Position numbers and translations under genes: made by a program
The notes under the pieces: generated by a model
Database searches by the model: none
The model's input: the letters and a program-made list of their open reading frames with translations, nothing else
What the model was told of the DNA's origin: nothing
Part shown: positions 610-59,035 of the stretch, one piece after another
How the letters are laid out: each line of letters begins with the position of its first letter
Position numbering within the stretch: position 1 is the stretch's first letter
DNA from: Tribonema minus
Taxonomy: Eukaryota; Sar; Xanthophyceae; Tribonematales; Tribonemataceae
Direction of reading: 5' to 3'
Length of the DNA: 64,000 nucleotides
NCBI GenBank assembly: GCA_017506865.1
Contig: JAFCMP010000557.1
Coordinates: forward strand, 372,001 to 436,000

Positions 610-3600
610 GCAAGTGGCGCCCAGGCCCGCAGCGCACACAGTACAAGGAGTACGCACGCTCGGCGCAGGCCGCGGGCTTCTCGACGACGGACGCAGCGGA
701 TCGCTCCGCGATGCTCCTGTGCATGGTCAACCCCACCAACCCCACGGGTGACTACTGGCCGGTGGACCAGGCCAAGAAGTACATTGAGGAGACGTGCGCG
801 CGCGGGACGACGGTGATCGTAGGTGAGCGCGGTAGGGGTGCACTTCAACTTGACGTTACAACTACTGGCCGGTGGACCAGGCCAAGAAGTACATTGAGGA
901 GACGTGCACGCGAGGGACGCCGGTGATTGTAGGTGAGTGCTGGGGGGTTCGCCTCAAGTTGCAGTTAGAGTTCAGGCAAACACACACACACGTACACACA
1001 CGCTCACACACTTTTTCCATGTCAGGTGTACCGTTAAGCGGGCAACGGCCTCCTTTGATTGCACAGCGTGCTCCATGAGGTTCGTGGTTGCTGCTGGAGG
1101 CGCGGCCGCGGGAAGTGCGCCAAGGAGTCGAGCGAGCGCCTGGGGGCGGGATGACACTGACTGTCCGATGGCAGACAAGTGGCCTGCGTACGCACGAGCG
1201 CACTTGGCGCCCTCGCTTGCTGAGTGACGCGTGCAGTGCACGCGCGCCGTGAGCGCAGCCACTTCGGAGCTCTGTGCACCGGCGGACGATACTGAGAGGC
1301 ACATATGTGTTGCCGTGACCTTACCCACCCTAATCTGCACGGCTGAGGGGGCGATGGGTGCCATGGGGACCCCTGGAGTGAGTGAGAGCCCCTGGGGGGG
1401 GCAAGTGCACGGGTGTGAACCCGTGACGGTGATCACTTTGGCTTTCTTTTTCATGTGCGCCATCGTTCTCAACGGGGGTCATCACGCTTTGCTCCGACAG
1501 CACGCGCACTGCACGCGACGTCAGAACAACTGCGGACGCGCGCCAACGCGCTGTCGGTGTGCGCCCTCCACCCCAGACCCCTTCCCGCTTGTACACGAGA
1601 GCCACCACCCCTCACCATCCCCCCCCCCCCCCCGCATCCCCGCGCCCCCCCACCCCCGCATCACACACGCAACCGTCACTGCCGCAGACGCAGACGAGAG
1701 CATGCAGCCGTGGCTGGCCCGCGGTGGCACAAGGCCAGCCTTATTTGTGCCGCCGCCGCCGCCCCCTCCCCCCGCCCCCGCCAACATCATGCAACACACC
1801 ACCATTCTCACAAACCATCGCCACTGCTGCGGCCGCCCCTCCCGCGCCGCAGACGAGAGCATGCAGCCGTGGCTAGGCCATCCCTGGCGCAATGTCAGCC
1901 CCATTCGCAATCACGCCATCCCCTATCCTTCCCCCGCGCCCCCTACCACATCGCACATTCTCACCGCCACGCGCAGCACCCCTCATCGCCGCCCCTCTAC
2001 CCCTCCCTCGCGCCACCGCACCACCGCGCCTCGCCGCAGACGACAGCATGCAGCCGTGGCTCTCGTGGCGCGAGGACAGCCTCATTTGCAATTGCGCGTG
2101 TGCATCCCCTATCGTCATCGCCCCCGCCCCCCACATCACATAGACACACCAGGTGCAGCAGCCCTCACCGCCAGCGCCGCCCCTCTCGCCCTTGCGCCAC
2201 CACGCGCTGCAGACGACAGCATGCAGCCGTGGCTCGGGCCGCGCTGGCGCGAGGACAGCCTCGTCTGCGAGCGCGCGTGTGAATCCTGTACCCCCCCCCC
2301 ACACACACACACATACTGCGTACACCAGCACCCCTCACCGCCGCCCCTCTCCCCCCTCCCCCTCCTTCTCGCACCTCGCCGCAGACGAGAGCATGCAGCC
2401 GTGGCTCGGGCCGCGCTGGCGCGAGGACAGCCTCATCCGCGAGCGCGCGTGGGCGCGCGCTCTGAGCGAGGACGCGGGCATACACGTCTGGGTCATGACG
2501 TCGTGGACCAAGATCTGGTCGTGCACGGGGGTGCGCCTCGGCTCCGTCGTCGCGCCGACGCGCGCGCTGCGCGACGCCGTCAAGGCCAAGCAGGTGAGGC
2601 GCGCGGCGCCATTGTGGGGGGGGGGTCATATGAAGAATACTTGGTTTGTTTGAGAGATGTACTTAATTTGCAGTGTTGTACAACTCCAATTTAAATCCCA
2701 CAGGGGGGGGGGGGTTCGGGATCTGCGTGACGCCGTCAAGGCCAAGCAGGTGAGGCGTGCGCGCTCGCCGCTGCGCAGTCACCGCCGCTCTGCGCGCTGC
2801 GCCGAGGGCCCCGGCACAGTTAATTTGAAGCACTTGATTTGCATTAGAAGCACTGTATAGTTGGTTTGTCAAGCTGTACACGACTCGTACCTGAAACTCA
2901 CGAGGGGAGGGCTATGCCTCGGGTCCGTCGTCGCGCCGACGCGCGCGCCGCGCGACGCCGTCAAGGCCAAGCAGGTGAGGCATGCAGCGCGCCGAGCCGG
3001 GGAGGGTTTATCCCGAGAAGTTGGGTCTGTATCGGAAGTACTGTTGTACTTGGCTTGTAGTGTTGTACGACTCATTGGGGGGGGGATTCAGGCTCTGTGC
3101 GACGCCATCAAGGCCAAGCAGGTGAGGCACGCGCTCCGCTGCGCGCTCGCTGCTCCGCGCCAAACCTGGGGGAGTTCGTCCGAAGAAACTTGGTCTGTAT
3201 CGGAAGTCCTGCTCCTGGTTTGTGGTGTTGTACGACTCAAACTTGAACCTCACAGGGGGGGAGGGGGAATCGCGCTCTCTGTGCGCGCTGCGCGGGACGA
3301 CGCTATATCTCCTGCGCATGCTGTCGAGGATCAAACAGGTGTTATGCGCGGCATTAACTCATGCAAGACTGTGATGTGCCCACTGCTCGCACACACGCCC
3401 CCTCCTCCCCCCCCCCCCCCCCCCCGCGCCCAGGTGTCGTGCAGCGTCATCACCATGGCGCTCGACTTCCTCTCCGCCGCATGCCGCGATGCGCAATGCC
3501 GCTTCGAAGCGAAAAATAGAGACTTGCGCCAGATACACCCGCTGCACACAGGAGCGCGAATCTCCCGCTCACTCGTGATGCCCCCCCCCCCCCCGCGCGC

Positions 3601-4318
3601 GCAGGTGTCGTGGAGCGTCAACACCATGGCGCTCGACTTCCTATCCGCCGTGTGCCGCACTGTGCAGTGCTGCATGAAGGCGCTGAGATAAATGCGCACC
3701 GTCGCAAAGCTTTCGTCGCCGTGTGTGTCCGCAGCTCACGCCCCCCCCCCCCCCCCCCCTCATTCTAAAGGTGCCGTGGAGCGTCAACACCATGGCGCTC
3801 CACTTCCTGTCCGCCGCGCGCCGTGACGTTCAATGCTGCTTTTAACCAAGGAGATGCGCATCAACTCCGCCGCTGTGTAGAAAAAGCCCTCTTTCCCAGT
3901 GGTCGGTAGCTCACCCCCCCCTCCCCCCCCCCCCCCCGGCCCCCCCCTCATCTTCAAGGTGCCGTGGAGCGTCAACACCATGGCGCTCGACTTCCTCTCC
4001 GCGGCGTGCGCGGACGCCGACTACCTCGCGCGCACGTGGGACGTCACACCGCGCTGGAACGCCGAGACGCGCGCCGACCTCGCCGCCGCGCACCCCCGCT
4101 GGACCGTTCACGGCGCGCCCTTCCTCTCGTGGCTCTGGATAGACACGGGCGACGCGGCGACGTGCGCCGCGGCGGTGGCACGTGCAAAGGCCGCCGGCGT
4201 CCCCGTGCGCAGCGGCGCGCCGGGGTACAACCTGCCGACGTTCTTCCGCGCGGCCGTGCGCCCCGCGGAGACGCGCCGCGTGCTGCTCGCCGCGCTCGCG
4301 CCGCTCGCGCACAAGTAG
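610..4318 (+). CDS. PLP-dependent aminotransferase, class I/II (3' part of gene)
   Basis: Three exons join in phase: 610-822, 2385-2593 and 3959-4318 (stop TAG 4316-4318). The product has the fold-type I aminotransferase landmarks: NPTNPTG (cofactor/substrate loop, exon 1), VDESMQPW split across the first junction (the D-E/Y strand before the PLP lysine), SWTK with the probable Schiff-base lysine at 2510-2512 followed by GVRLGSVV, and a C-terminal small domain with an Arg-rich RAAVRP segment. It most resembles histidinol-phosphate or threonine-phosphate type enzymes; the substrate cannot be told. The N-terminal exons are missing or outside the window. Both internal introns are filled with tandem copies of the adjoining exon edges (separate entries). 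The last acceptor is AAG rather than CAG, whereas two upstream decoy copies have CAG. The stop codon is the start of a telomere-like repeat. Confidence 0.82.
751..945 (+). repeat. Donor-side exon-edge tandem duplication, 2 copies, 110-bp period
   Basis: The last ~72 nt of the NPTNPTG exon plus donor and ~38 nt of intron (from actactggcc at 751) are repeated from 861. The second copy keeps the reading frame and a good donor (aggtgagt at about 931), with a few substitutions. The intronic piece with cttcaactt also recurs in altered form (cctcaagtt). Which copy supplies the donor in mRNA is not fixed by the sequence, but only the first is continuous with the upstream exon. Confidence 0.88.
1690..2460 (+). 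repeat. Acceptor-side exon-edge tandem duplication, 5 copies, ~160-187 bp period
   Basis: The first bases of exon 2 (acgagagcatgcagccgtgg) recur with a preceding cgcag/tgcag acceptor at 1694, 1853, 2040, 2213 and 2385. Copies carry 40-70 nt of exon-like sequence, C-rich tracts before the acceptor, and growing similarity to the functional last copy. Only the copy at 2385 continues into the SWTK exon; the others run into intron. Confidence 0.92.
2525..3130 (+). repeat. Donor-side exon-edge tandem duplication, at least 4 copies
   Basis: The end of exon 2 (gacgccgtcaaggccaagcag before gtgag) is repeated with the exon end at 2593 (functional), 2749, 2974 and 3121; a very decayed fifth may end at about 3340. 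All four retain CAG|gtgagg. The copy ending at 2974 also carries the preceding cctcgggtccgtcgtcgcgc segment. Confidence 0.9.
3400..4020 (+). repeat. Acceptor-side exon-edge tandem duplication, 4 copies, ~166-188 bp period
   Basis: The start of exon 3 (encoding V-P/S-W-S-V-N-T-M-A-L-D-F) recurs at 3434, 3605, 3771 and 3959, each preceded by a homopolymeric C run of roughly 10-19 nt and an acceptor (CAG, CAG, AAG, AAG). The copies diverge into junk after ~65 nt; only the last encodes the rest of the domain. Confidence 0.92.
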
Positions 4319-4333
4319 GGTTAGGGTTAGGGG
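4316..4333 (+). repeat. Interstitial telomere-like repeat starting at the stop codon
   Basis: TAG GGTTAGGGTTAGGGG: the aminotransferase stop codon is the first triplet of about three TTAGGG units. Similar short arrays occur elsewhere in the window. Confidence 0.85.
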
Positions 4334-5429
4334 CGCCGGCGGCGCTGAGACGCGTTTGAAGTTATTGTAGCGGCTTTCCGCGGGGGCGGGGAGGGGGTGG
4401 GCACTTCAGGTTATGTAGGTGGAAGCTGGGGGGCACCTTGGAGTCATGCAACTTTGGTGGTCACTTCAAGTTGTGTAGGTTGAAGTTCAGGGGACGCATT
4501 GCGTGCTGTCGGGCGCCCTCGCGCCTCTCGCGCAGCAGCAGCAGCGGAAGAGTAGTGGTAGTAGCGCCTTAAAGTTGTTGCGCAACTTCTTCTGGTGCGT
4601 CTGGGTAGTCACTTGACGTTGCGAAATGTAGCCGCGCGGCGGATGCGCTGCGCACTCTTCGCGCCGCTTGAGCGGAGTGAAGTCGCAGGTTCAAGTGGCG
4701 TTTGTTTCGAGACGGGTGCTGCACCGGGTACGCTGCACCGGTTCTCACTGTGTGACCCACCCAGATCCTACCCCTCTCCCCCTGTCCCCTGGCTGGTGAT
4801 GTTCTGTCACGCAGCCAGCGGCGCGCGCTCTTGCGCCACGAGATGCAGTAAGTTCAAGCTGTAACTTCCGACGGTAGGGGCATTGGTGTCCCCCCAGTGC
4901 TTGCAACATTAGACCAGGCAGCGTGTTTGTAAGCGGCGGCGTGCGCGGCGCCTTCGCGCGCCGACGACGTGTGTCGCTGATCCGTGGTACTTTGTGTCCT
5001 GTTCCAACACACATGAATTCACGGGGATACACGCTGCGCGAGGCACGCATCTCTTCCCTTTGTGTGCGCGGCTGCCCGTGCGCGTAGCCGTTTGCTGCTG
5101 CTTCGCTCTGCTGCGTACCACGTATGCGCTCATGCACTGCTGTTAGATGTCGCCGCTTCGTCAGTCGTGAGTATTGGTCAGTCACTCTGCAAGACGGAGT
5201 CCAGAACCGCAATTACACCCAGAGCCAGTGGCAAACGACCACAGGACGTGCACCGTCAGAGAGCGAGCCTGCGCGTGCAATGTGCACGTGTACGGTATGT
5301 ATGTTTGTATGCTTGCTGCGCGCGACTGTGGCCACCTTTTGCGCCCCCATCATGCCACATTTATCCACAATGGTGTGCATGACCTTGTGAGGCATTTGCG
5401 CACAGAAACCTGCAATATGCATGTTGCAG
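4334..5429. other. Intergenic region, no gene recognised
   Basis: Probably the aminotransferase 3' region and spacer. It contains two similar ~60-bp units around 4402 and 4463 (cacttcaggttatgtagg / cacttcaagttgtgtagg), carrying the recurrent cttcaagtt motif. No ORF with family resemblance was seen on either strand. Confidence 0.5.
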
Positions 5430-5632
5430 TGCAGAATCCAGGGAGGGGGGACATGTGGACGAGGTCGTAGGGGGGGATCTCGAGATGCCATTTGGCAGCG
5501 GCGGCGTTTGAGTGGGTGTCATCGAGACACTTTCAGACTGTGTCACACGACATGTAGATTCCGTACAGCAAGCTTTGATACCTTTCACCTAAACTTTTCC
5601 GCGCCCTGAGCGAGAAAAATAAAGAGTATAAA
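5430..5632 (+). mobile_element. 3' fragment of RLE-type non-LTR retrotransposon
   Basis: This matches the last ~200 bp of the element at 46499-48372: gcagaatccaggg, the Gly-rich C-terminal codons ending in TTTGA, cactttcagactg, gacatgtagattcc and the terminal gcgccctgagcgag followed by an A/T-rich tail. It is 5' truncated, as expected for target-primed reverse transcription, and its 3' end abuts gtac like the other copies. Confidence 0.8.
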
Positions 5633-5907
5633 GTACACTGCACACCTGATATTACAAGAATGATCAACCCTAAGGAAGTTGTGTCATGGAGACCCAGGCA
5701 GTCTGGTCAACATTGAAAAACCTGCATTGCAGTTCCAGATGTTTCTTTTCATTGTTTCTTGTTGCATGCTGTTGATGCTGCACAGCCCATCTGCAAAAAA
5801 TCAATTGCAGGAGTGGGGTGAGGGCATTGCAGTCTGCCTAAACTTCAGTGAATTACAAAAACTTGTCCAATAGCATACCCCGTAGATCCTGCGATGTAAT
5901 CATCCCG

Positions 5908-8765: not shown

Positions 8766-9740
8766 TCAGTCCCACGGCAGCCGCTCCGGCAGGCCCTCCG
8801 CCGCCGTCGCCGCAACCATGACGGCGCAGCAGTCGAGCGGCGCTGCGCCGCTGCCGCCGGTCCAACACGGCAGCTGCGTAACGGCGCCGTCCTGCGGCGC
8901 CGCCGCCGCTGCCGCCGCGCCGCCACTCGGTGCGTTGAGACGCTGCAGCTGCGACATGAAGGCGGCGCTGCCCGTGGAGCCGCAGCGCAGCAGCGGCGGC
9001 GGCGGCGGCGGCGTGCTGCTGCACGCGGCGGTCGCTGCTGCCGCTGTGCTAGCGTGGAAGGCGTTGTCGACGCCGCCGTCGCTGACATAGCTGTCGCCGC
9101 CGCTGCTGCTGCGGCAGATGGTGGCGGCGGCGTCGCTGCTGCCGTAGAGGCCGCCGCCGCTGCTGCTGCTGCCGTTGGTGAACGCGCCGGAGTGCACAGG
9201 CACGGTGAAGGTGACAGTGCCACTGCCGTAGGACTGCTCGCCGTAGCCGGCGCCCTGCAAACAGGTATCACCGCTGGTGCTACAGCTGCTGCCGCTGCTC
9301 GTGTAACTGCTTCGCGTAGGTCGATCGCAGGGGATGCTGACGCTTGTGCTGCCGCTGATGTCGTAAACTTGCTGCGGCTGGTGCGGGTGGTCCTGCTGCT
9401 GGTGCTGGTGCTGCTGCTGGTGGTGCTGCTGCTGGTGCTGCTGGTGCTGCTGGTGCTGCTGCTGTTCCCAGTGGTGATCATAATGATGGGCCTGCTGCTG
9501 TTGCTGCTGGGAGTTGTCCTGGTGCTGCTGCATCTCGTGTTGCGGCGCCTGCGGCTGCTGATTGTGATACATGTGCTGCTGGGGCTGCTGGTGATGCTGG
9601 TGGTGCTGAGCAAATTGTGGTTGAGCGAGCTGCTGCTGCGGGATACCGTGCTGCTGGTACTGCTGCAGCGGCGGTGGCCGCAGCGGCTGGTGGTGGTGGT
9701 GCAGGTGCTGAAGCTGCTGCGGGTGCTGCTGCTGCTGCTG

Positions 9741-9771
<31 letters not shown>

Positions 9772-12700
9772 GCACTGTGCCCGTGCGCGTCGTTGAAGTA
9801 GCTGCCGTTGAGGTTGCTGTCCGTGTCGTCGACGTCCATCGCTGAGCCGCTGCTGCCTCGCCTAGCGCTGATGACGTTGTGCGTGCGCTCCGCGCGGCGC
9901 GCCGACCCGCGCGCCATTGCCGTCAGCGGCACCACCACCTGCGCACGAGAGTACGGCGGTTACACAGCGACAGCTACAGAGAGGAAAATGACACCTTCCG
10001 CGCTTGACGGCTGCCGGTGTACGAGCATGAACACCGCATCGTTAAAGGTGCCGAGCCGTGGGTGGCACCACCGCCTAAGGACGACAGCGACAGTCATAGC
10101 ATGACAGTTGTAAACTGAGCAGCACCTGCACTCAACAACAGTGCCGCGCTTGGGCAACGGCTAAGAAACACGTTCAACTTTGCCAGTGCACTCAACGCTG
10201 CTCAAGTTGCGATGAGATGGCTGCGGCCAGTAGGTCTTGACTAGCGCGTTTTGGACACTCCTAAAGTATTTTGAACTCCTGACGGCACGTATCATACAAG
10301 TGTTCACATTCAAGTATACTGGCGTCCTGCTATCGCTATGGATACAGAGTGCTCTTTGTCACGGCCTGGGATCCGAGAGCAGGCGCAGTACGAGAAATGT
10401 GTGTTGCGCGCTTAAACTTCAACCTACGGCAGGGCACACTTCAAGCGCTTCAAGCACATCACATCAGCAAACAAAGTCTTTCACGTTTCATTCATGAAAC
10501 TTCAATAAACTTCTGAAAACTTTGATCAACTGCTTGATAGTTTTCTCCCACCGCGCTCATCTCGTCATAGGGCACTGGGTCAAAGCCCTCATCCGAATCG
10601 TTAGGTTCACCGTCGACAGCAAACTGCAGTCATTCATTCATGAATCATCAACTCTCTTCTTGATTCTATTCTTACCACTGTGCTCACCTCGTCATAGGGC
10701 ACGGGGTCGAGGTCCTCCTCCGAATCGTTCGCCTCGCCGCCGATGCCGCGGCCGCTGCTGCCGCCGCCGCGGCCCTCCGACTCCGACTCAGAGTCGGTCG
10801 CCAGGTACTCGGAGCGTATGATGCGCGCGAGCGTCGCGTCCACGCCGTCGACGTAGAGGCCGCTGTCGAAGGACGAGAAGTCGAGGGGGTCGAGGTTCAT
10901 GGCATCCACATCCGCCTGGTGATGGGGGTGGTGGTGATGGTGGTGGTGATGGTGTTGGTGGTGGCTGGCGTCGGCGTGGCTGCGCGCGCGTGGAAGCAAG
11001 GGGGGGAGGAGGGGGGGGGACGTGCGGCAGCAGGGCTCAGCGACGATTGCACGCAACTGTGAATGGCGCACTTTTCATGAGCAACGGATGGTTTTTTTTA
11101 CCGTGTCTCTGCGAGGAAGCATGATGTGCGGGGCAGCCATGGGGGGGGGGGGGGGGGGGGGCTAGACATGGCCCGCGTGGCCTCGCATGGAAACCGCATT
11201 GCAGTGCGTAGAAGGGGGGCGTGCGAGGGTCATGAGGGGGCGGCCGCAGCCGGCGTGGGGGCAGTGAGCCTGCTGAGCCATGCTGTACGTGCGCTGATGC
11301 AGAGATCCAACGCAGCATTGCATCGCCGGCGGCCCTGGACGCCTTCGCGGGATCAAGACGGCCGAACGGCGACGGCCGTGCGGGGAGCTCGCGCATGAAG
11401 GGGAACTTGCAAAAGCAAAACGAAAGCCCTGAGGCAGCAAAGCGCAGCCAATGCGCACACGCACGCGCGCCCGCGATGATGGCCTCGACACAACGGAAAT
11501 CTCTTTCAAATCAGCGCACTTTCTGCGAGCAACAAACAAAAAAAACAGCAGCGGCCTCACCTGACGGGCGCGTCGAAGCCAGCGGCGCCCCAGCTCAGCG
11601 GCAGCGGCGCCACGCCGCCGTCGCCGCCGCCGCCGCTGTGCAGGCCGCGGTCCCGCCGCGCGAACGCGCCGCGGATGCCGTTCCCCGCGCTCGCGCGCCG
11701 CGTGAGCGCCGCGCGGCGCAGCGAGTCGACGTGCGGCACGACGGCGCCGGGGCCCGAGGGGCGCCGCACGTGTTGGTTGAAGTTGACGGAAATAGCCAGC
11801 GGCACCAAATGGCCGCAGTCCTGAGCGCTGCTGCTGCCGCTGTCGGCGGCGCCGCCGCTGCTGCCGGCGGCGGCGGCGGCGGCGGGGGCGGCGGCGAACT
11901 CCGGGTGCTTGAGCTTGACGTGGAGGTTGAGCGACGACGCGTTGCCGTAGCCCTTGAAGCAGTGCGGACACGTGTACTTGCGGTCGACCTCGTAGGCGCG
12001 CCTGCGGATGGTGGCGGCAGCGGCGGAGGGGGCGTGTCTGAGTGAACGCTGCGCGGTGAGGCGCTTGACGTGCGCGTCTGCTGATGTTTTCGAGTCGGTC
12101 GGTTCGGATCCCCGCGTGATGCATCTGTGGTCTGGCCGTGCATAGAGAATTCCCAGATCACGGCTCCAACGTACAGTTTCTCTGGCAGGATCCCGCTGTG
12201 TCTCAATGATGACGCATGCGGCATGTCTATCACTTCCACGTTGTGCTCCGTGCAGAGCGCGCATGCATAGCAGCAACGGCTGCACGTGCGGGCGGCTGCA
12301 CTGCACTTCAGCTGGGGGTCCATGCAGCAAAGCATCGCTGTGTACGGACCGAGCTAGGAGGACCCCAAGGGATGTTAGCTCGTCCCAATCAGCAGGCCTA
12401 GTCATGGACTGTGCCTGTGGTACAGGCATTGGTGCTTTTGGTGGTTTGTTCTAATATGGTCAGCGCGTCGTACATGTGCTGCCACGTGTGCTCGCTCGAC
12501 GGGAGTCTGAGCTGCAGCTCAGTCCCATGCCGGCAGCGGGGACCGTGCGTATGGTAACATTTGATCAGACATGCTGTGGCAACTGTGCACAGGTGCCATG
12601 TCTTTGCACTTTTGGTATCATCGTGTACTTCAAGAGGTACTTCTAAGCATGTGCTCTGTTGACAACAATGAAAGTCTGTGTCTGTTCAAAGTTTGAACTC

Positions 12701-17592: not shown

Positions 17593-24778
<7,186 letters not shown>

Positions 24779-25559: not shown

Positions 25560-26974
25560 TCAACTCCCCGCCACCGCGGGATCGGTCGCGAGCAGCAGCC
25601 CGTGCGTGTCCATGGCGTGCGTGAACCGGACCACTTTTCCCTCGTCGTTGAACTCAAACACGTTCATCACATACTTGTCCGTGAACCGCCGCCCCGTCGC
25701 CTTCCACGTCAGCGACACCTCCGCCCACGATACCACCGTGTCGCCGCCGTCGAGAAACTTGACAATGCGTGAGGAGTCGTGCATGACGGCCTGCGCGCGG
25801 AACGCCGGGAACGATCCTGCGGCCTCTTCCGGGCCGCGGCGCGTCGCGAGAATGGGGATGCCGTAGCTCTCGCGCCCGTCCCACATGATGTCGTCCGCAA
25901 AGAAGGTCTTGAGTGTCTGCATAGGGGCAAGTGGCGGCGCAGGGAAAGCATGGTGATGTCGATGTCTCAACACTTAAAATGCCCTGCGATAATGAGCTTG
26001 GGAGATGCCGTAGCTCTCGCGCCCGTCCCACACGATGTCGTCTGCAAAGAAGGTCTTGAGCGTCTGCAGAGCAGGGGCAGTGGCGGCACGATGATGTCAT
26101 TTGGCAAGTCTGAAATGCCTTGTAATTTTGAGAATGGGGATGCCGTAGCTCTCGCGCCCGTCCCACACGATGTTGTCCGCAAAGGTCTTGAGCGTAGGCG
26201 CAGTGGCGGCGCAGGGGAAGTGTGCGCACCACGTCAAAGCATGACGATGTCAATTGTTCAACATTTGAAATGCCTTGTAATTAAAAAGCATGGGGATGCC
26301 GTAGTTCTTACGCCCGTCCCACACGATGTCGTCCGCAATGAAGGTCTTGAGCGTCTGCTTAGCACAGAGGCGGTGGTGAGGAAATGGTGGCACAGGGAGG
26401 AGACGTGCGCGCACCATACATCAGGGCATGGTGATGTCAAACTTGATTCAGCCTTGTAATTACATTACGATGTTGCATGAAAACAGAGTGTGTGGTGCTC
26501 TGTTGCTATGTCGCACATGACGGTGTGGCAACCTGTCTGCTGCCCCACTGCATGCCCTCCACAGAGGCGCTGTCTGAAAAGACACTCTAACTTGGCGGAC
26601 CTCTTGGTCTCATGTACAGGTCACAAAGTTCTGCAGTGATGGCGCGCAGCGACTGCACTAGGTATGACACTCCTTGCTGTATATTAACACGTGCAGTTAC
26701 TTTTGAGGTCGATAAACATAGCCTTGCTGACAAATACACTGACCTCGAGGTCCCCGCGGCCAAGCGCCTCATACATCGCGCGTAACCGTTTGACGTTGCT
26801 GGACACTGGGCCATCTGCCAGTGGTAACTGGACATTAAGCTTCGCAGCGTCGTTGCTGCTGCTCATGCTGCAGGTGAGCTTCGTGACACCGCCTCTTAGC
26901 GTGGCCGTGTAGCCGCGAGAAACGAAGGAGGCAGCCGGTGACAAAGCCGCAAGCGCCAGCAGAGAGTGACGCAT
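25560..26974 (-). CDS. SnoaL/NTF2-like protein with signal-type N-terminus (minus copy)
   Basis: Two exons, complement(25560-25916, 26744-26974), phase 0 at GRGDLE|TLKTFF, 195 residues. The N-terminus MRHSLLALAALSPAASFVSRG is a signal-like sequence with an AASF motif, consistent with secondary-plastid or secretory targeting. The SnoaL-like alpha+beta barrel follows: YEALGRGDLE, FADDIMWDGRESYGIP, RIVKFLDGGDTVVSW, WKATGRRFTDKY, VFEFNDEGKVV and THGLLLATDP. This family includes polyketide cyclases, ketosteroid isomerases and binding-only members; no function can be assigned. It is a divergent paralogue of the gene at 27736-28767, sharing the intron position. Its intron holds three decayed copies of the exon 2 start. 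Confidence 0.85.
25850..26370 (-). repeat. Acceptor-side exon-edge ladder, 4 copies, 132-159 bp period
   Basis: The exon 2 start (acgctcaagacctt... through the DGRESYGIP codons) recurs with its first base at 25916 (functional), 26063, 26195 and 26354. Each copy carries ~65-75 nt of exon-like sequence plus an intron piece with a gcgcaggggaag-type segment. The 26195 copy has lost its acceptor AG; 26063 and 26354 keep tgcag/agcag. Confidence 0.93.
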
Positions 26975-27735: not shown

Positions 27736-28767
27736 ATGCGACCCGCCATCCTGGCGCTGGCGGCCCTCACGCCTGCAGCATCGCTCGTCTCACGTGGAAC
27801 GCCAGCGTTGGCGCGAGCCTGTGGAGCCTTTGTGACCAGCAGTCGTAGCAGCATGAGCAGCAGCAGCAGCGGCGGCAGCACTGGTCAAGGCGGCACTGGC
27901 AATCTGAATGTCACTGTTCCGGCAGCAGAAGCCGGCATGTCAAAAAACGTGGCCACGATTCAGGCCATCTACGCGGCGTTTGCACGTGGCGATCTAGAGG
28001 TCAGTTGCTGCGGCTTGTACAGCTCACCGGTGCCAGGTAACATGATTGAATACCATGGACATCGGCCATTGGTGTTGCCGCTAATGGTGTGCAAAGGAGA
28101 TGGCGTGTCAGACATGCAGGATTGTCCCTTCTGCGTTGGTCGCTACCATCCCTCGTGCAGCGACAATGCAGTGTCACCTTTCAAGCTGGCAGCAGATGTG
28201 CCTACGTGCGGCTGCTACTTGCCAACAGACACGCGCTGGCATGCACATGCGTGGAGGATACGCGGCTTTGCTGTAATGAACCGTACTGTCTTGCGCGTGC
28301 TCTGACCATCACAGTGCGATTTGACACATCTGCACGTCAGCACAGCGTAGGACGGCAACTACTAGTAGTACATGCACAGCGACAGCACTTCGCGCTGTCT
28401 GACCTCTCTCTTCCCCCCCCCCTGCGCGCAGACGCTCAAATCGCACCTCGCGGACGACGTCACCTTCGACGACAGGGAGAGCTACGGCATACCGCTCATC
28501 GCGCCGCGCCGTGGCCCCGACGAGGCCGTCGCGGCCTTCACGACGTTCCGCGACAACGTCGACATCGTCAGCTCGCGCATCGTCAAGTTCCTCGAGGGCG
28601 GCGACACGGTGATTGCGTGGGCGGACTCGACGTTTGTGTGGCGCGCGACGGGGCGGCGCTTCTCCGACGCCTACAACATGAACGTGTTCGAGTTTAACGC
28701 GGACGGCAAGGTGGCGCTCGACACGCACGGGTTGCTGCTCGCGACGGACCCCAGCATCGGCAAGTAG
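27736..28767 (+). CDS. SnoaL/NTF2-like protein with signal-type N-terminus (plus copy)
   Basis: Exons 27736-27999 and 28432-28767, phase 0 at ARGDLE|TLKSHL, 199 residues. MRPAILALAALTPAASLVSRG is a signal-like N-terminus with AASL; a Ser/Gly linker follows, then IQAIYAAFARGDLE, LADDVTFDDRESYGIP, RIVKFLEGGDTVIAW, WRATGRRFSDAYNMN and DTHGLLLATDP. It is a clear paralogue of the divergent gene at 25560-26974 (same intron site, shared ESYGIP and HGLLLATD blocks). The ~0.76 kb between the starts may be a shared promoter. Unlike its partner, its 432-nt intron shows no exon-edge copies. Confidence 0.86.
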
Positions 28768-29806: not shown

Positions 29807-38262
<8,456 letters not shown>

Positions 38263-41200: not shown

Positions 41201-42330
41201 GGGCTGCCTCTGCCAGCGGATGTGCCTCCAGCGCCTCAGATCCGTGCCACAGCTGCTGCCAGATGCTTTGGTCCCTCTTCGATCGCCGGTCAGGCTCGCA
41301 GCCATATGCTCCTCGCTGCGTTGCAATCCCATACCCAGCTGGTCTCTGCGCAGCGGGCATTGGCTGCTAAACCAGACTTCTTCCGGTGGTCGTTCTTCTG
41401 CAAGTGCACAAACAGAACAAAACGGCAACTGCAACTGCAAGTGTGAAGCGCGGTGGGCCAGACCTGTGGGTCGACATGTTATGCTCCACATGACAACGTG
41501 CAGGGGTATGTTTGCTTCACACTGATCATGTGACTGAAGTGTCGCGATGCAGTGTTTGGCAGGGACTATCCACGAGCCCAATACGCAGATGCATCAGAAG
41601 TAAGCATTGGAAACAGAGACACCTTATGCAAAACTTTCACAAGCAGCTGGGTGCACAGCTGGGGGGGGAGAGCTTGCAACAGGGCATGTGCCATGTCACG
41701 AGTGGTCAAATTACGGACTTGCAGTTCAATCAAGGCATCAACCATCACACCTACAACACTGCCGCTGGAGCTTTCACAAGCAGCTGGGTGCACAGCTGGC
41801 GTAAGAGGGCTTGCAACAGGGCACAGCTGGCGTAAGAGGGCTTGCAACAGGGCATGTGCCATGTCACTAGTGGTCAAATTACGGACTTGCAGTTCAATGC
41901 AAGGCATCGACCATCACACCCACACAACACTGCAGCTGGAGCTTTCACAAGCAGCTGGGTGCACAGCTGGCGTAAGAGGGCTTGCAACAGTGCTTTGTGC
42001 TATGTCTCTACATAGTGGGTATCTTTAGGGTTAGGGTTAGGAGTAGGGTTAGGGTTAGGGTAGCCCTAACCTAACCCTAACCCCCATCAAATTACGGACT
42101 TTTGCAGTTACATCCACAACACTGGTTTCACGAACAGCTAGGTGCACAGCTGGCGCAAGAGGGCTTGTAACAGTGCACGTGCCATGTCTCTGGCGGTACC
42201 AATTCAGGGATTTGCAGTGTAATGCAAGGCACCAACAATCACACCCACGACACTTTCACTGTGTTGCAAAGTTGTGATGTACTCTGTGAAGTCGCGCTAA
42301 GTAGTGGCGTGTATTACGAAGCATGTACAT
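41201..42330 (+). repeat. Segmental duplication, copy A (uninterrupted)
   Basis: ~1.13 kb nearly identical to 45416-46498 plus 48373-48422. It contains an open stretch of unknown family (ending in KPDFFRWSFFCKC...), then tandem units of a satellite-like sequence (aattacggacttgcagttcaat ... ctttcacaagcagctgggtgcacagctgg), then an inverted telomeric repeat, then more satellite. Copy A lacks the retrotransposon found in copy B and so is the empty site. It differs from copy B by a missing 24-bp segment near 41562 and an extra short unit near 41805-41840. Confidence 0.93.
42025..42085. repeat. Head-to-head telomeric repeat (copy A)
   Basis: TTAGGG units (with one ggagtaggg variant) run directly into CCCTAA units, forming a near-palindrome. 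This is the orientation expected at a fused pair of chromosome ends or a fold-back hairpin. Confidence 0.93.
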
Positions 42331-45415: not shown

Positions 45416-46232
45416 GGGCTGCCTCTGCCAGCGGATGTGCCTCCAGCGCCTCAGATCCGTGCCACAGCTGCTGCCAGATGCTTCGGTCCCTCTTCGATCG
45501 CCGGTCAGGCTCGCAGCCATATGCTCCTCGCTGCGTTGCACTCCCATACCCAGCTGGTCTCTGCGCAGCGGGCATTGGCTGCTAAACCAGACTTCTTCCG
45601 GTGGTCGTTCTTCTGCAAGTGCACAAACAGAACAAAACGGCAACTGCAACTGCAAGTGTGAAGCGCGGTGGGCCAGACCTGTGGGTCGACATGTTATGCT
45701 CCACATGACAACGTGCAGGGGTATGTTTGCTTCACACTGATCATGTGACTGAAGTGTCGCGATGCAGTGTTTGGCCATGGTTTTGCAGTGCAAAGTGGCA
45801 GGGACTATCCACGAGCCCAATACGCAGATGCATCAGAAGTAAGCATTGGAAACAGAGACACCTTATGCAAAACTTTCACAAGCAGCTGGGTGCACAGCTG
45901 GGGGGGGAGAGCTTGCAACAGGGCATGTGCCATGTCACGAGTGGTCAAATTACGGACTTGCAGTTCAATCAAGGCATCAACCATCACACCTACAACACTG
46001 CCGCTGGAGCTTTCACAAGCAGCTGGGTGCACAGCTGGCGTAAGAGGGCTTGCAACAGGGCATGTGCCATGTCACTAGTGGTCAAATTACGGACTTGCAG
46101 TTCAATGCAAGGCATCAACCACCACACCCACACAACACTGCAGCTGGAGCTTTCACAAGCAGCTGGGTGCACAGCTGGCGTAAGAGGGCTTGCAACAGTG
46201 CATTGTGCTATGTCTCTACATAGTGGGTATCT

Positions 46233-46293
46233 TTAGGGTTAGGGTTAGGAGTAGGGTTGGGGTTAGGGTATCCCTAACCTAACCCTAACCCCC
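46233..46293. repeat. Head-to-head telomeric repeat (copy B)
   Basis: Same arrangement as in copy A with one substitution (gggttgggg) and tatccctaa at the centre. Confidence 0.92.
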
Positions 46294-46498
46294 ATCAAAT
46301 TACGGACTTTTGCAGTTACACCCACAACACTGGTTTCACGAACAGCTAGGTGCACAGCTGGCGCAAGAGGGCTTGTAACAGTGCACGTGCCATGTCTCTG
46401 GCGGTACCAATTCAGGGATTTGCAGTGTAATGCAAGGCACCAACCATCACACCCACGACACTTTCACTGTGTTGCAAAGTTGTGATGTACTTTGTGAG

Positions 46499-48372
46499 GC
46501 GCGACCGCTCCGGCAGCGGCAACTGCATCAGCGGCTGGCCGCGCTTATGGCGCAGCCATTCCGGCAACACACGACGCAGCTGCCGCTGGATCAGGGGCCG
46601 CGGCGGCAGCACAGGCGGCACCAGCGGCAGCAGCAGCAGCGGCGGCGCACGGCGCAACTACTCCGGCGGCAGCAGCAGCGGCGGCAGCAGCAGCTGCTCC
46701 AGCATCAGAGGCTGCTGCAGCAGCGGCAGCACATGTTGCACCTCAAGTGGCCTCGGCGGCATCACTAACTGCAGCATCAACAGCAGCGGCTGCGGGCATA
46801 GGCAACACAGCTGCTACAGGCCCTACTAGCCTAAGGGCTGCTGCAGCACCTGCAACAGGAGCAGCGTCGGCAGGCGGCGCCGCAACCGTGCCGGCTGCGA
46901 CAGCGGCAATGGCGGTGGCAGCGGCCAATGCGGCAGGTGTTGCACCAACACCTGCGGCAGCAGCAACACCACTGGCAGCAGCAGCAACGGCAGGCGGCGC
47001 AGCTGCAGCACCAGCGCACGCAGCAGCGGCAGCCGTCAATGCAGGCGCTGCGCGTTCCACACCAGCAATGCTACAAGGCGCAGCAGCAGCAGAGGTGGCG
47101 CGCCTGCCCCTCATGCGGACGATCGCCACAGCTGCCACATCTCTACGTGCAGCAACAGGTGACAAGCTGGAACATATACTGCCACCAGCGCTACCGCCAC
47201 TGCAGCAGCAACCACCTACGCAGCAGCCGCTGCTGCGGCCGACAGCAGGTGGTGGCACTGGTGCGGATGCTGCTTGCGTACACCCTTCACCAGTGCTCTG
47301 CAGTTGCAGTGTAGCCTGAAGCGCCCCAATCAGAGTGCGCTTGCAGATGCCGTCGCTACCGAGCTTGCAGATAAGGTGGAGGCGGACCTGCAACAGCTGC
47401 CGCAGGGCACGCAACGCACGCAAGCACTTGCTCGATTCCGGTCGCAGCGCCACATGCACTCGATCGGCATGGCATTCCTCAACGAGCCCATGTACTCCAC
47501 AACGGCTTCGTTCGATGGCCTATCCTGGCAGCTGGCCGTCAAACGCGCAATCGGAGTAGAGGAGCAGACGGCAGGCTGCAAGCTGTGCGGGAAGTCGCCG
47601 GGCGGCACCCTGCATGCACGGCTGTGTCAAGCGCCACGCGTCAAGGCGCACACACCATCGTCCACAATAGCTTCAAGAGGGCCACGCAGCGCATCCTGCG
47701 GCAATACCTCAAAACGGGACTGGTGGACGAGGACTACACGCCGTTTCTGGGGTCCGCCGGGCCGCCGGGGAGTCGCAGGATGGACATCGTGCTGCCTGCC
47801 GACGCCTTCCCGGTGACCGGCTACGACGACCCGACACGCCACCTACCGCTCATGGTGGACGTTACCTGCTTCGAGGCACAGGTGGTGTCGCGGGCGGCGA
47901 AGACTGCAGCAGACCCCGAGCGATGCTGCCGCGACCAAGAGGCCGCCAAGACTACCCACTATTCTGGTCATTATGATCAGAATTGCTACAAACTTGCCAC
48001 TTTGGCAATAGGGTCATGGGGCGGAAGCTGCTGGAGGCTGTGGCGACGGAGTATGCCAGCAGGATGTCAGTGCCCGGAGGAGCGCGCACTCAAGCTCTTA
48101 AGGGCATCGCCCTGGCGCGCTTACGCTCGGCACTGTCGGCAGCGCTCCACATGGCGTACTCTGGCCGTGTCATGACACACATGGCAGAATCCAGGGGGGG
48201 GGGGCACATGGAGGAGGACGTAGGGGAGGACCCCGAGATGCCATTTGGCGGCGGCGGCGTTTGAGTGGTTGTCGTTGCGACACTTTCAGACTGTCATACG
48301 ACATGTAGATTCCTTACAGCTAGATGCCAATCATCTGGGCTTTTTCGCGCCCTGAGCGAGAATTAATAAAAA
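46499..48372 (+). mobile_element. RLE-type non-LTR retrotransposon, 5'-truncated, with target-site duplication
   Basis: Boundaries come from the empty site in copy A. Left flank gtactttgtgag and right flank gtactctctgtgaag are both versions of the single gtactctgtgaag in copy A, indicating a ~12-14 bp duplication. The interior starts with a GCN-repeat region coding for Ala/Gln/Gly-rich sequence (46500-47270), then a CCHC-like finger C-K-L-C-x8-H-x3-C (about 47579-47628), an R-x-M-D-I ... LMVDVTC block like the PD-(D/E)xK restriction-like endonuclease of R2/CRE/NeSL-type elements, and a helical C-terminus ending before 48264. At least two frame changes (about 47640 and 48010) break the ORF. 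No reverse transcriptase remains. The 3' end is gcgccctgagcgag plus A/T-rich tail. Confidence 0.82.
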
Positions 48373-53500: not shown

Positions 53501-56500
53501 GTGCTTCACCCATCTCCTGGCCAGTGCGCATGGCAACGTGATGATCACTCTATGACATGCTCAACCAACCTCAACGAGTGGATACGCAGCAGGCACTGTA
53601 GCGCTGTTGCAGGCATCAAAAGGCGCTGTTCCACTCGTCATGCGGTGATCCCGTTCTCAGTACCAATGCGGTACGCCAATGAGTGTGTCTTCTGCAATGG
53701 CCGCCGTGTGTGTACACAGATGACGGCGCTGCTGCAACTCCGTGAAGCGGACAATGTGTGCATCTACATTGATGGCATCACCCGCACCTTGAATGTGGAG
53801 TTTAGTCCACTTGCGTCACGATACTGCACGACGCTGGCAAGCCTAGGTCAGTCCTGCACATGACTTGACACGAAACTGCAACTTAATGATCGTGCGCTAC
53901 ATAATGTCATATGACAACCGAACGGTCAACGGCTGGGCCTTAAAGGCACCATATACTGGTGTTGCAGGCGCTGTGTGCAATGCAAGCATTTGTTGAGCTG
54001 CTCATTCGGATGCTACTGCTCTGCCTTGTGTGCAGCCGTGTCATTTGTGCGCAAGTCTAGACAGCTGAATGCTCTGAAATACATGACGTCCTGTACAGCA
54101 GCTGCCAGTGCTGCAGTGCTCCTCCAAAGAGCAGTGTGATTCAAGGAACATGGCTTTACACAGATCATAAATGTTGTAACTTTTCTCATGCCCCCTCACA
54201 GAGCATATAGAAACAGCGCACAACTGTATGCCAGAGAGCGGAAGCTAGCTGGAGCACAATGGCATTGTGCTAGGTTGCCCATGCTCATGCACGCATTGCT
54301 CAGCAGATGCACGTGTATTGTCTGAGTCGCAACCATATATGCCATGGTATGCCCCGCGACACTGCCATCAACTTGTACGGATGTCGCTCTGCAGGCCTGG
54401 CTTAGGGAATTATCTATTGCAAGACTCAATCGGCACAGCCAGCCAGCCTGAAAAAATAAGCCTACGACAAAATCACATTATGTAAGCATGGCGCCGGCGG
54501 TGATCCCTTGGCTTTCGCGCACGCGCATGCAGGCTACAGCTTGGACGGTCTCATCGATGATTTCTTTGACTCGGAGACCGAGACGAAGTACAAGGCGCAG
54601 CTGCGGTTTTCCGATATCATGAGCCGCAGGGGCGTCGAGCTCAAGAAAGGGCCTGATGACAGCATGGCGCTGGTGCTGACGCTGCGGAGGCCACCGCACC
54701 TGTACCAGATGAAGTGAGCGGCTGCGGAGGTCATGCGATGTGTGTGCAACTTTGCAACGTGTGCAACTGTGCAATGTCACCTGTTCAAGGCATGCCACGC
54801 TCTTGGTTGAGCCTCACAAGGTCAAGCTTGAGCTTGTCAACAAAGGACACGGCAAACCTCACAGCAATGCCATGTGGGAGTGTCAATCGCAGTCTTTACG
54901 TGTATAAGCGTATATGAACAGGCCAAAGGTATGAAAGCTTGAGTAAAGGCATTGTACTATGTAGTACTTCGAAGTAGTACTTCTGTGTATGCCAACGAAG
55001 CCATGGTGATGTCACGTACTTCAAGTATGTCATGCCTGACTATGCTTGAACGCCATCTGGCCCTCGTTTGCTATGAGAGAGGACCCAGAATCATGCCCAC
55101 GTACGTGCCCGCATATGCGATGTGCGTGTGCATGGGTGTACGCGATGGGATGCACGTCTGCAGTTACGTCATTGGATTTCTTGATTGGGCTGAGGGGCAA
55201 CAGAACCCATTTCACCATGATGAATCCACATGATTCTTGCCCGTGACAAATGCGCGCGATTTGATACGACGCTTTGTAGTATGTATATACATAGATGTAC
55301 TCTGCAATACTTCAACAAGCCAGTGACTCTGCGCACGCTCCGGCGCTGCTGCAGGCCACCAAACGCTTTGCAGAAAATGGGCTTGGAGCCTTATGATGAG
55401 CGCGACGACCGCACCTGGACGAGAACTTCTGAGCAGCATGGCGCACAGGTAGGAGTCCCCCAATGATCATCTCAGTGTCGAGAGTCCATAGTGCACGCGC
55501 CGCAAGCGCGGATTCCGTATACTGAGCTGTGCCTGAAGGCCAAACCCTCCTGATGTCTTCAAGTAACACGCGGTCGCATGGTGTTACGCCACTCTGCACT
55601 GCACGAGATGTATTCAGTCGTGTCGTATCTGGTGGGTCGCCCCATATGTATGTACTTTTAGAAAATTCTCGCTCAGGGCGCGAAATAGCCTAGATGATGT
55701 ATCTAGTTCCAACAGTTGCACCATATCTCAGCACCTTATTAGGTTGTGTCACCACGCTCGAAGCATAGTGACACTTCAGAACTGGCGTTTTGCACCTGCC
55801 ACCAGGCGGGGGCCATGCGGCACGCTCACTACTTGCTGCTTATGTTATCATGTTTGTGTACATCTGCTGTGTACTTGACTGGTTTTAAAAAAGAGGTCGT
55901 GAACCCGACAGTTGTGCTTGTGACGAGGCCGCCTGACTTTGTGGACAGTGTGTATTTGCAGTTGAGCTTCATTGTGCTCAGTGTCCACTGCTGACGAACA
56001 TGCAGCATGCATATGGCGATGGCACAGAACGGCCAGCACCCGAGCAGGCAGTGCTCAGCTGGTGATGCCAGTTTCAATTGCGCACAGGCACCATAGTATC
56101 ACACAGGCAGTGTCTGCACAAGTAGCGCATGCTTCTGTCTTAAGTGGGGTTTTTTCTTGTCCGTGAGGCTACTTGCATTTACATAGTGCACTAGCTGCGT
56201 ACATTTTATTACTTCTCGCTCAGGGCGCAAAAAAGCCCTGATGCATAGTGGATGTCCAGCTTGCAACCAGAATCGACATGTGTCTTTGTGAACACCTTGA
56301 AAGTGCCTCAATGCGCATGTACTTATTTATTCAGCCTGCAGATGGTACATGTAGGCGATTTACACACAGCAGTGGCATTGCTCTGAGAGCCCACGGCTCA
56401 TGCTTGAACTGCAAATGTTCAGCTTCAAGCGCTGCTCACACCGTTTCTTCTCTCCTGGTCAGGAAGCATTTGGGCGGTGTCTCGTGTGGCACCTACCAGT

Positions 56501-58522
56501 GCGTGATGGTCACTCAGCAGCGCTCACCAGACTCGTGCAGCTCGCGCACGCGGCGCGCCTGTGCCGGACGCGCGAGGTGTACCTGAACACCATGGACAAG
56601 CTCGACCCCGTTTTTGCTGCGCCAGTGCTCGCGGAGTCTCCCTTTGGCGCCTGCGCGCCAGCCGCCCTACAGGCGCGTAAGCGTGCCGAGCACTCGCAAA
56701 CAGTACTTCAAGTTGCTGAGTTCCGGTACCGTAGCAGCGGTACTAACCCAAGAGCGTTGCCGAGATGTAACAAAGACAGTTCTGGGAGGCGAAAGCACTT
56801 CAGAGGAGGTGCAGCTAGCCTGTTCCGGAATGGGTGCAAATCTCCTGCCTCGCTGTCGCTATGGTGCCGGCATGCTGATTGCATCTCCACTGGCGCGTCT
56901 GCCGAGCACTGGTGCGTCTGCCAGGCGTCGCTGAGCGCTGCTGCTCGCTGACTAGCACACACTGCGCTGCGCAGCAATGGCGTGTGTAGATGCACTTCAA
57001 GACTCGCCATCAGATGGGTACTACTATTAGCTGACTGTGAACGAGACATTGGAGGCACTACCAATGCCGACGACGTACCGCCGCATTGCCTATGGTGATA
57101 TCAACGCTAGCACACCTGTAGCGCCGGTGGTCAATGCTTGGTAAACAGCACCGCCAGTGAGACGATTGTGTTGCGCATGCATGCAGCGCACAGGGCGCGG
57201 CTTGTCACAGCGTTCACATTACAGCGCGCGCTGAGGGCACTGCATGCGCGGCCGCTGGCTTGCCCGCAGCGAGCAACGCTCAGCAAGGCCATGCGCACCA
57301 AGCTCATGCCTATGTACTGCAGAACCGCTGCAACATCAACACCAGAACTCATCCATTGTTATGGCCACCAGTCTCACCTGCAGTGCGTGTGCACCAGTGA
57401 GCAGCAACGCCAACACTAGAGCCCCCCCATAATCATAATTATCATGGCCACCTGTCTCACCTGCGTATGCACCAATGACCAGCCCATGCGTCCAACAGAG
57501 CGTCTGCTGCTTGTCGCATGCAGCTGAGCGCGCGCGCGGCGAGGCTGCCGTTCGCGCTCCAGTACGCACTGTGCTGCGCCGTGTTGGCGTACAAGATGGA
57601 CGTCCTGGCCGTCGGCACCGCGCTGAGCGCTGCCCTGGAGGAGGCGCCCGAGGCAGACGCCGTGCTGGCGCTGCTCGACATGGCCAACCACGCCCGGCAG
57701 CGCTTTCAAGGTACGCATGTATTGACTGTTCACAATGCTGCAGGCACTCAGTCTGCTGCTCTTTCAAGGTCGGTGCCGGCTGGTCACAGTGCTGCAGGGC
57801 ACTCGGTCTGCTGAAAGTGCTGAAGATTTTGTTCGATCGTGGCCTGAAAGCATTTGGAGGTGACATGCTGTCAAACTTGCATGCAGATGCAACCCACAGG
57901 CGCAACTGCGCGTGTCCTGGTCACCTCGGTCATTGTTTTTGGAGGGTGGTGTGTCGCATATGTGTAGTGAAGCCGTACAATCGACCGCAGTCAGAGCCAC
58001 ACCTTGCCTGCAGAATGAGGTCGCCATGGCTGGAACACCTTGCACGCTTGCATACGGTCTGCGAACCGCCGTGCTCTGGTGCACCGGCTGTGCCACCAGT
58101 GGGGCTTAGCGACGGCATCGCACATGATCACGGTGCAGGCATATCGCTGCGGCTGTGCCTGCTGGAGTAATCAAAGACGCCTCGGCATTCTGCCGCGCAC
58201 CACATGTAACTGCCGCTGCAGACCCGCTCGCCTTCGTCGCCGCCGCGCTGGCGCGCACCTACGCCGCGCCGCCCTCCGCGACGAACGACTCCGACTCCGA
58301 CTCGGACGGCGACAGCGCCGCCGCCGCAGCAGCAGCAGCGCTCAACCTGGACCCCGACGACCCGCTCTTTGGCGTCGACCGGCCGCAGTCGCTCATCATG
58401 GTGCCGCGCGCGTTTGTCACGCCGCTGCGCGTCATCGTGCTGCCGCCGGAGCAGGAGGGCCTCAACCGCGTGCTGCGGCACTACCGCGAGTTCGGGCACC
58501 GCTTCCTGAGGGTCGCGTTCAG
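50551..58522 (+). CDS. Eukaryotic RNA-dependent RNA polymerase (RDR), 5' part
   Basis: Exons 50551-50649, 51251-51385, 52119-52172, 52960-53232, about 53661-53846, 54533-54713, 55355-55448, 56463-56576, 57524-57710 and 58222-58522; all phases agree except the 53232/53661 step, where an exon or another start is missing. A basic N-terminus (MARKRRGRRRGRW) precedes an RRM with RNP2 VAFVGNLP and RNP1 KGFAFVGF, as in plant-type RDRs. RDR-like blocks follow: FSDIMSRRGVEL, ALVLTLRRPPHLYQ, DRTWTRTSEQHG, GRCLVWHLPV, ARLPFALQYAL and VPRAFVTPLRVIVLPPE...LNRVLRHYREFGHRFLRVAFR, the last being the entry to the polymerase core. The catalytic DxDGD region is not in the window. RDRs make dsRNA in RNA silencing. 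Several introns carry antisense retrotransposon 3' ends. Confidence 0.82.
51102..51235 (-). mobile_element. Short retrotransposon 3' end in RDR intron 1
   Basis: Minus-strand copy of the last ~130 bp of the 46499-48372 element (tttttattaattcccgctcagggcg ... cgacaaccactcaaacgccgcc). Its truncated 5' end lies only ~15 nt before the RDR exon 2 acceptor (gtacctgcgcag, exon from 51251), so the polypyrimidine/branch region is built from the insertion. Confidence 0.85.
55656..55705 (-). mobile_element. Very short retrotransposon 3' end in RDR intron
   Basis: About 50 bp: tacttttagaaaattctcgctcagggcgcgaaatagcc, matching the element terminus in antisense. Confidence 0.7.
56200..56312 (-). mobile_element. 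Retrotransposon 3' end in RDR intron
   Basis: tttattacttctcgctcagggcg ... cttgaaagtgcctcaatgcg matches the terminal ~110 bp of the element in antisense, ~150 bp before the exon at 56463. Confidence 0.78.
57335..57480. repeat. Tandem pair before RDR exon 9
   Basis: tatggccaccagtctcacctgcagtgcgtgtgcaccagtgagcag (57360) and catggccacctgtctcacctgcgtatgcaccaatgaccag (57443) are two copies with ~83-bp period just upstream of the exon at 57524. A weaker donor-side pair, ctttcaaggtacgc / ctttcaaggtcggt, follows that exon at 57703 and 57763. Confidence 0.75.
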
Positions 58523-59035
58523 GTAGAGCGCGGCTGGGGGCTGAACGGCGCTGGCATGCGCGGTGCCTCGTCGTGACTCATTCTGGCCTGTCACCCAACT
58601 ATTCTTTTTCTCAAAGTATTATAGAGGGCCCCGACCGCGTGCTGCGGCACTACCGCGCGTTCGGGCACCGCTTCCTGTGGGTCGTGTTCAGGTACCGTGC
58701 GGCTTGGCTCTGTAAGGGCGTGTGCAGTGATCCGTGGCGACTCATTCTGGCCTGTCCCCCAACTATTCTTTTTCTCAAAGTATTATAGAGGGCCCCAATC
58801 GCGTGCTGCGGCACTACCGCGCGTTCGGGCACCGCTTCCTGAGGGTCGCGTTCAGGTACCGTGCGGCTTGGCTCTGTACGGGCGTGTGCAGTGATCCGTG
58901 GCGACTCATTCTGGCCTGTCACCCAACTTTTCTTTTTCTCAAAATACTATAGAGGGCCCCAACCGCGTGCTGCGGCGCTACCGGGGGGGGGGTTCGGGCA
59001 CCGATTCCTGCGCGTCGCGTTCAGGTATAGCGCGC
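58455..59035 (+). repeat. Donor-side exon-edge ladder in RDR, 4 copies, ~166 bp period
   Basis: The exon end encoding NRVLRHYREFGHRFLRVAF (boundary 58522) recurs with boundaries at 58691, 58855 and 59024. Copies 2-4 are each preceded by ttctttttctcaaa.ta.tatag, a good 3' splice site, so they look like cassette mini-exons (67 nt for copy 2, which would shift the frame). The real exon has donor gtagag, copies 2 and 3 gtaccg and copy 4 gtatag, so splice choice is open. Confidence 0.95.

Follow-up and report, generated by a model that had tools for sequence, protein, structure and literature searches.

Do the introns of unrelated genes lengthen by copying the edges of their own exons? The question is raised by a 64,000-nucleotide stretch of the Tribonema minus genome (contig C554, positions 372001-436000, in a 158-Mb assembly of 554 contigs; hereafter the window), for which an earlier note had reported "ladders" at 14 splice boundaries in five genes, i.e., series of tandem copies of an exon edge, with its splice site and some intron, inside the adjoining intron. 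Any copy of an exon edge with a splice site, other than the true edge, is here called a decoy. The copies do lie in the sequence at the positions reported, and all 14 boundaries were recovered: four in an aminotransferase gene, seven in RUVBL2, one in the SnoaL-like gene SnoaL-1, and two weaker ones in an RDR gene and a zinc-finger gene. Overall, the duplication pattern is real and junction-biased, and it lengthens introns in at least some genes. The best explanation as a whole, which we consider moderately probable, is that local, junction-biased tandem duplication lengthens introns while decoys survive through exon definition.

To establish the pattern, we compared both exon edges of 26 introns (52 junctions) with the remainder of the intron, using probes of 80 nt of exon and up to 60 nt of intron. 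Splice models were derived from spliced protein alignment for RUVBL2 (five introns; EukProt transcript protein P0003), the aminotransferase (two; EukProt transcript protein P0241), a calcium-dependent kinase at locus L036 (five; NCBI protein P0121), and RUVBL1 at locus L019 (seven; modelled on human RUVBL1), the last two loci lying outside the window and not having been picked by the earlier note. SnoaL-1 and its paralog SnoaL-2 were each modelled against the other, and five further kinase introns were taken between consecutive Pfam matches, with splice sites from an ab initio model. Copies were detected at 22 of the 52 junctions (11 donors and 11 acceptors), as opposed to 0 of 1040 tests on dinucleotide-shuffled introns, a comparison that the earlier note had proposed beforehand; one of the 22, the donor of kinase intron 4, is a weak match to a CTG run without GT. 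By gene, edge copies including the splice site were found at 7/10 junctions of RUVBL2, at all four aminotransferase junctions in the window, and at 1/2 of SnoaL-1; copies were present at 8/10 junctions of the L036 kinase (seven without the weak one), 0/2 of SnoaL-2, and 2/14 of RUVBL1. The proteins P0003, P0241, and P0121 hold each duplicated edge one time only. Donors in the protein-anchored models are GT in all introns except two GC cases (L036 5296-6536 and L019 7796-8697); the L036 decoy is likewise GC. An ab initio gene finder reproduced 21-23 of the 24 junctions already known, but it took ladder copies for exons, so that its repeat coverage (0.16-0.22 of positions ≤50 nt from a junction, 0.06-0.08 in intron >100 nt away, and 0.11 in intergenic sequence) is circular and was not used as proof.

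The clearest ladders are those of RUVBL2 and the aminotransferase. The RUVBL2 model is identical at 487 of 491 residues, by spliced alignment, to a EukProt Trinity-transcript protein; the most identical proteins among the matches listed were a EukProt Trinity transcript (100%; presumably from the same or a close species), a JGI protein (92%), the brown alga Ascophyllum (91%), and Chrysoparadoxa (90%), with two longer records at 74-75% identity scoring above them. The aminotransferase model, of which only residues 103-367 fall in the window, is identical to its EukProt transcript at 253 of 264 residues. Their features are as follows:

30026..31750, minus strand: RUVBL2 intron 5 (1725 bp), with a donor ladder at 31378-31786 and an acceptor-side copy at ~30228-30297 (19 nt of exon)
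31849..32229, minus strand: RUVBL2 intron 4 acceptor ladder, true edge between 31890 and 31889, one decoy
32227..32787, minus strand: RUVBL2 intron 4 donor ladder, true edge between 32673 and 32672
32905..33549, minus strand: RUVBL2 intron 3 acceptor ladder, true edge between 32946 and 32945, decoys starting at ~33424 (AG present) and ~33522 (AG gone)
34139..34455, minus strand: RUVBL2 intron 2 acceptor, true edge between 34174 and 34173, one decoy
35026..35925, minus strand: RUVBL2 intron 2 donor ladder, true edge between 35866 and 35865, six decoys (four GTATG, one GTTTC, one GC)
36054..37608, minus strand: RUVBL2 intron 1 (1555 bp), a contrast case without edge copies and with one internal tandem repeat at 36282-36443
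751..967, plus strand: aminotransferase donor ladder, true edge between 822 and 823 (copy 751-858), one decoy at 861-967
823..2384, plus strand: aminotransferase intron (1562 bp; EukProt protein P0241) with a ladder at each end
1625..2454, plus strand: aminotransferase acceptor ladder, true edge between 2384 and 2385, decoys starting at ~2156, 1974, 1799, and 1625, AG in 4/4
2535..3266, plus strand: aminotransferase donor ladder, true edge between 2593 and 2594, decoys at ~2723, 2909, and 3092
3389..4009, plus strand: aminotransferase acceptor ladder, true edge between 3958 and 3959, decoys at ~3735, 3581, and 3389

Each boundary carries 1-6 copies besides the true one, and 40 of the 45 spacings in the 26-intron set fall between 73 and 225 bp (the others at 281-451; median 165 bp), in agreement with the 2-7 repeats at ~75-220 bp, and up to 451 bp for wider ones, described previously. 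A spacing of 165 bp is near that of a nucleosome repeat or an Okazaki fragment, which is no more than a hint. Between 10 and 50 nt from the edge, identity is 89-91% between the exon parts of copies and the true exon, and 77-82% for the intron parts, a gap that fits a freely decaying decoy paired with a constrained exon on one side, and decay of both partners in the intron on the other. Decay with distance was likewise apparent: the closer copy was more exon-like in 32 of 41 untied pairs and the farther one in 9, which suggests that new copies arise beside the exon. These identities also bear on whether ladders could be produced by faulty assembly or sequencing. While one RUVBL2 pair is near-identical (137-bp unit, 99%), the exon parts of the 43 copies range from 70 to 98% identity, where assembly errors would yield identical copies, and series recur across several genes, on C554, C135, and C90 and probably also on C113, making an artefact very improbable.

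We next evaluated whether duplications affect junctions more than the rest of the intron, as the earlier note had held, since ordinary tandem duplication throughout introns could leave a similar picture if the conserved exon partner kept edge pairs recognizable for longer. This longer-detection effect is real, as shown by the exon and intron identities above, and interior-only repeats do occur (e.g., 36282-36443). However, among repeats identified in 24 introns (SnoaL left out) and up to 150 nt of flanking exon, 17 of 23 families spanned a junction when 2.9 were expected from random placement (P = 2e-12), and the excess persisted when the odds were raised twofold (P = 2e-8) or fourfold (P = 3e-5) to allow for slower decay; at the loci not picked by the earlier note, the corresponding figures were 7/9 families against 1.4 expected (P = 1.4e-5, or 0.01 with fourfold odds), all of these P values assuming independent families and being made optimistic by clustering within genes. 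Two kinase families scored as internal are in fact edge copies whose intron part measures just 5 and 6 nt. Once exons were removed altogether (SnoaL introns included), 10 of 21 families still lay ≤20 nt from an intron end against 1.4 expected (P = 1.7e-7, on the same assumption of independence), including 8 at ≤10 nt against 0.7, and a laxer E-value gave 14/26 against 1.6. Slow decay of conserved exons is therefore not the cause of this excess, and ordinary duplication appears unlikely as the full explanation. Among introns ≥500 bp, 22/40 true junctions had copies, compared to 39/772 interior pseudo-junctions outside ladders, 246/536 inside, and 285/1308 in all; both versions are given because dropping ladder interiors favours the contrast, and the ladder limits, set by hand, are in three introns somewhat wider than the measured reach. 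Minisatellites and variable number tandem repeats in introns are also tandem arrays with diverging copies, a likeness that ladders share, but the placement of ladders is tied to the exon edge (17/23 and 10/21 families against 2.9 and 1.4).

Whether ladders lengthen introns can be read most directly from the SnoaL paralogs, which form a built-in control:

25848..26376, minus strand: SnoaL-1 acceptor ladder, edge between 25917 and 25916, three decoys
25917..26743, minus strand: SnoaL-1 intron (827 bp), bearing the ladder
28000..28431, plus strand: SnoaL-2 intron (432 bp), no ladder, position and phase as in SnoaL-1

The acceptor used in SnoaL-1 was placed by its paralog rather than by a transcript; a 30-bp SnoaL-2 intron set by the aligner at 27813-27842 was taken as an alignment artefact. 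Because the intron is common to both paralogs, it is older than the ladder, and because the same-position intron measures 432 bp without copies against 827 bp with three, the ladder lengthened the SnoaL-1 intron, which less the ladder reach would be 389 bp long. More broadly, and as the earlier note had proposed, introns with copies are longer (median 1091 bp, versus 615 bp for those without; P = 0.0066), although longer introns also give more room for matches. Ladder reach amounts to 41-77% of the intron in the 11 copy-bearing introns outside RUVBL1.

How, then, do these genes tolerate so many apparent splice sites? Of the 43 decoys, 34 would introduce a stop if used and 6 would shift the frame, a total of 40 disruptive outcomes that suggests exon definition; the other 3 would insert sequence in frame. 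In the same set, 41 of 43 decoys retain the splice dinucleotide (GT/GC or AG), and donor positions +1, +2, and +5 and acceptor positions -2 and -1 match in 89 of 90 cells (54-100% at other intron positions within 12 nt). With matrices built from the same 19 introns being scored, decoys scored a median of 7.1 as donors, true donors 10.3, and other intronic GT -3.1; the corresponding acceptor medians were 6.7, 11.9, and, for other intronic AG, -1.8. Such values would be expected if decoys were functional, i.e., under selection to slow or regulate splicing, or used as recursive splicing steps. Yet the excess is soft, given that copies share ancestry and that only alignments crossing the junction were admitted, decoys decay with distance (32 pairs against 9), and SnoaL-2 manages without any, which leaves a function for the decoys decidedly unlikely. 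In the models, the true donor and the true acceptor each occupy the outermost position, and these outer sites are the ones used in the RUVBL2 and aminotransferase transcript proteins. Pairing across the exon accounts for this arrangement, whereas intron-wide pairing would be expected to select the decoys lying farthest in. Internal exons measure 117-294 nt (n = 15; median 180 nt) and introns have a median of 941 nt (n = 19). Judging from this architecture, splicing most likely proceeds by exon definition, with inner decoys ignored; a narrow literature search returned no paper on exon versus intron definition in this algal group.

The repeated unit is unrelated between the junctions compared, as originally described. 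Across 54 edges (E 0.01, same strand), the seven cross matches between different introns involved only homologous exons or 16-20 nt. This pertains to two known routes in which splice signals are also duplicated or spread, namely intron gain through tandem duplication of an AGGT-bearing exon piece (the Rogers model) and insertion of introners. The former would make the donor region a copy of the acceptor region, but the two edges of each intron are unlike, and at these settings none of the 26 introns has a donor edge that matches its acceptor edge. Because there is neither such a match nor a shared unit, the introns tested reflect neither Rogers-type gain nor introners, and we regard both as highly improbable.

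No earlier description of junction ladders was found among the listings of a literature search. The closest precedents are isolated instances of an intron arising through tandem duplication, one in potato RdRp, where an existing intron-exon structure was duplicated (PMC4974935), and one in Drosophila (PMC2891723). As in Tribonema, local duplication there takes in the splice signals of a protein gene; however, it yields a new intron or exon, whereas in Tribonema an existing intron becomes longer with no change to the protein, and its donor edge and its acceptor edge are copied separately, in several genes and several times. Fission yeasts, according to PMC4974935, carry multiple 24-bp exonic duplicates around introns, so that an exon fragment bearing a splice motif is likewise repeated in tandem within one gene, but the short exonic unit there creates an intron, and that account describes no separate ladders at the two ends. 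Introners (PMC4457414) similarly affect many introns of one genome, unlike the Tribonema introns compared in that the latter have no common unit.

The earlier note had further predicted abundant decoys genome-wide, which was borne out in part. Ladders with decoys occur outside the window at the L036 kinase and RUVBL1, and a search of the chaperonin family, inspected by hand, found that 4 of 56 protein matches were extra partial exon copies in the intron adjoining an edge-sharing exon, in three genes on C51, C5, and C135 (at the level of protein matches). Conversely, 12 of 14 RUVBL1 junctions and all 10 junctions of the five other kinase introns lacked copies, and no confirmed ladder was found in 140 kb of contigs C90, C179, C144, and C223 (L020-L033). 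In the kinase family, no extra exon copies were seen by hand among 131 matches, a list that covers 123 of 905 candidates as scored and from which the L036 copies are themselves absent. Among six distinct RRM loci, L007 carries a tandem repeat (1780-1953 with 1949-2120) across the predicted exon edge at 1811; in L001, a single repeat lies outside the predicted gene, in addition to coding repeats; and the other four have none. Repeats at L034, L035, and L037 lie at ab initio junctions only, i.e., predicted edges. A tandem repeat at L036 7400-7799, where the first coding exon of that kinase begins, could be a ladder of an intron in the 5' untranslated region. Contig pairs C90/C179 (L020-L024 and L025-L029) and C144/C223 (L030-L031 and L032-L033) are colinear, with long blocks mostly 92-97% identical, and are probably diverged haplotypes kept separate in the assembly. 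A 72-bp tandem duplication in L021 (~2590-2660; C90 near 767600) is absent from C179, where the corresponding position is inside a predicted exon; if the pairs are haplotypes, local duplications segregate in this genome.

We propose that introns grow by local tandem duplications, mostly of ~75-225 bp, with one breakpoint ~20-115 nt inside the exon and the other in the adjoining intron, and that repeated events at one junction push older copies deeper into the intron, where decay follows; the anatomy, junction preference, decay, and lengthening are shown by the data above. The excess at junctions most likely stems from a process with a preference for starting at or within exons, perhaps replication slippage or faulty processing of fragments the length of one nucleosome or Okazaki unit. 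Selection would remove products internal to the exon and retain those that end in the intron. The earlier note had likewise put forward slippage, along with R-loops and repair, as possible causes. Decoys would survive because the nearest 3' and 5' sites of an exon pair with one another. In a stronger form, possible but doubtful, a junction-directed mutation process coupled to transcription, splicing, or exon nucleosomes keeps stamping nucleosome-sized edge copies into introns and is a main source of intron length in this alga, exon definition making the decoys harmless. Several observations weigh against junction-biased duplication combined with exon definition. The sample is small, ladders cluster by gene, and families are not fully independent; copies are missing from 13 of the 26 introns and, in RUVBL1, are confined to two of the 14 junctions. 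No recent polymorphic ladder unit was found, the one haplotype difference examined being a duplication within an exon. No recurrent motif was seen by eye at exon-side breakpoints, in a run whose probe, with 150 nt of intron, missed the nearest copies and whose counts were not used. GC content was rejected as a driver, being only slightly higher at edges (medians 0.585 versus 0.55), too small a difference. Finally, retention of the dinucleotide in 41/43 decoys is somewhat above the expectation from ~90% per-site identity, and could instead reflect function.

The two remaining ladder genes of the window are weaker and are listed here:

10530..10743, minus strand: zinc-finger donor, predicted edge between 10688 and 10687 (ab initio only), one copy
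58455..59058, plus strand: RDR donor ladder, edge between 58522 and 58523, three decoys at a spacing of ~164-169 bp, next exon not identified

The zf-C2H2 match of the former (2.8e-4) is under the cut-off. For the predicted RDR exon, the match to the 582-position RdRP profile extends to position 36 at 23.3 bits (cut-off 23.8), and its edge is weaker because the match stops where the query sequence was cut; no statistic includes this gene. Elsewhere in the window, tandem arrays at 41634-42254 and 45873-46462, ~4 kb apart and beside TTAGGG runs (42025-42063 and 46233-46269), share a 31-base unit, GCACAGCTGG..., and appear related by eye. Closely similar predicted coding sequence near these runs, at 46485-48256 and ~43000, and also on another contig at L037 1-2534, may represent a dispersed mobile element; a 130-aa piece of it gave no Pfam match. 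A satellite-like array with units of 70-72 bp and longer periods of 142 and 449 bp occupies 62911-64000, up to the window end.

Intron length is usually ascribed to transposons and neutral growth. Junction-anchored duplication would represent a further route to it, one in which the order of events is readable. In addition, ladders set up a natural competition, with as many as six donor decoys or four acceptor decoys lined up on the inner side of the true, outermost site, which is the one used, and they could thereby make exon versus intron definition testable by one RNA sequencing data set.

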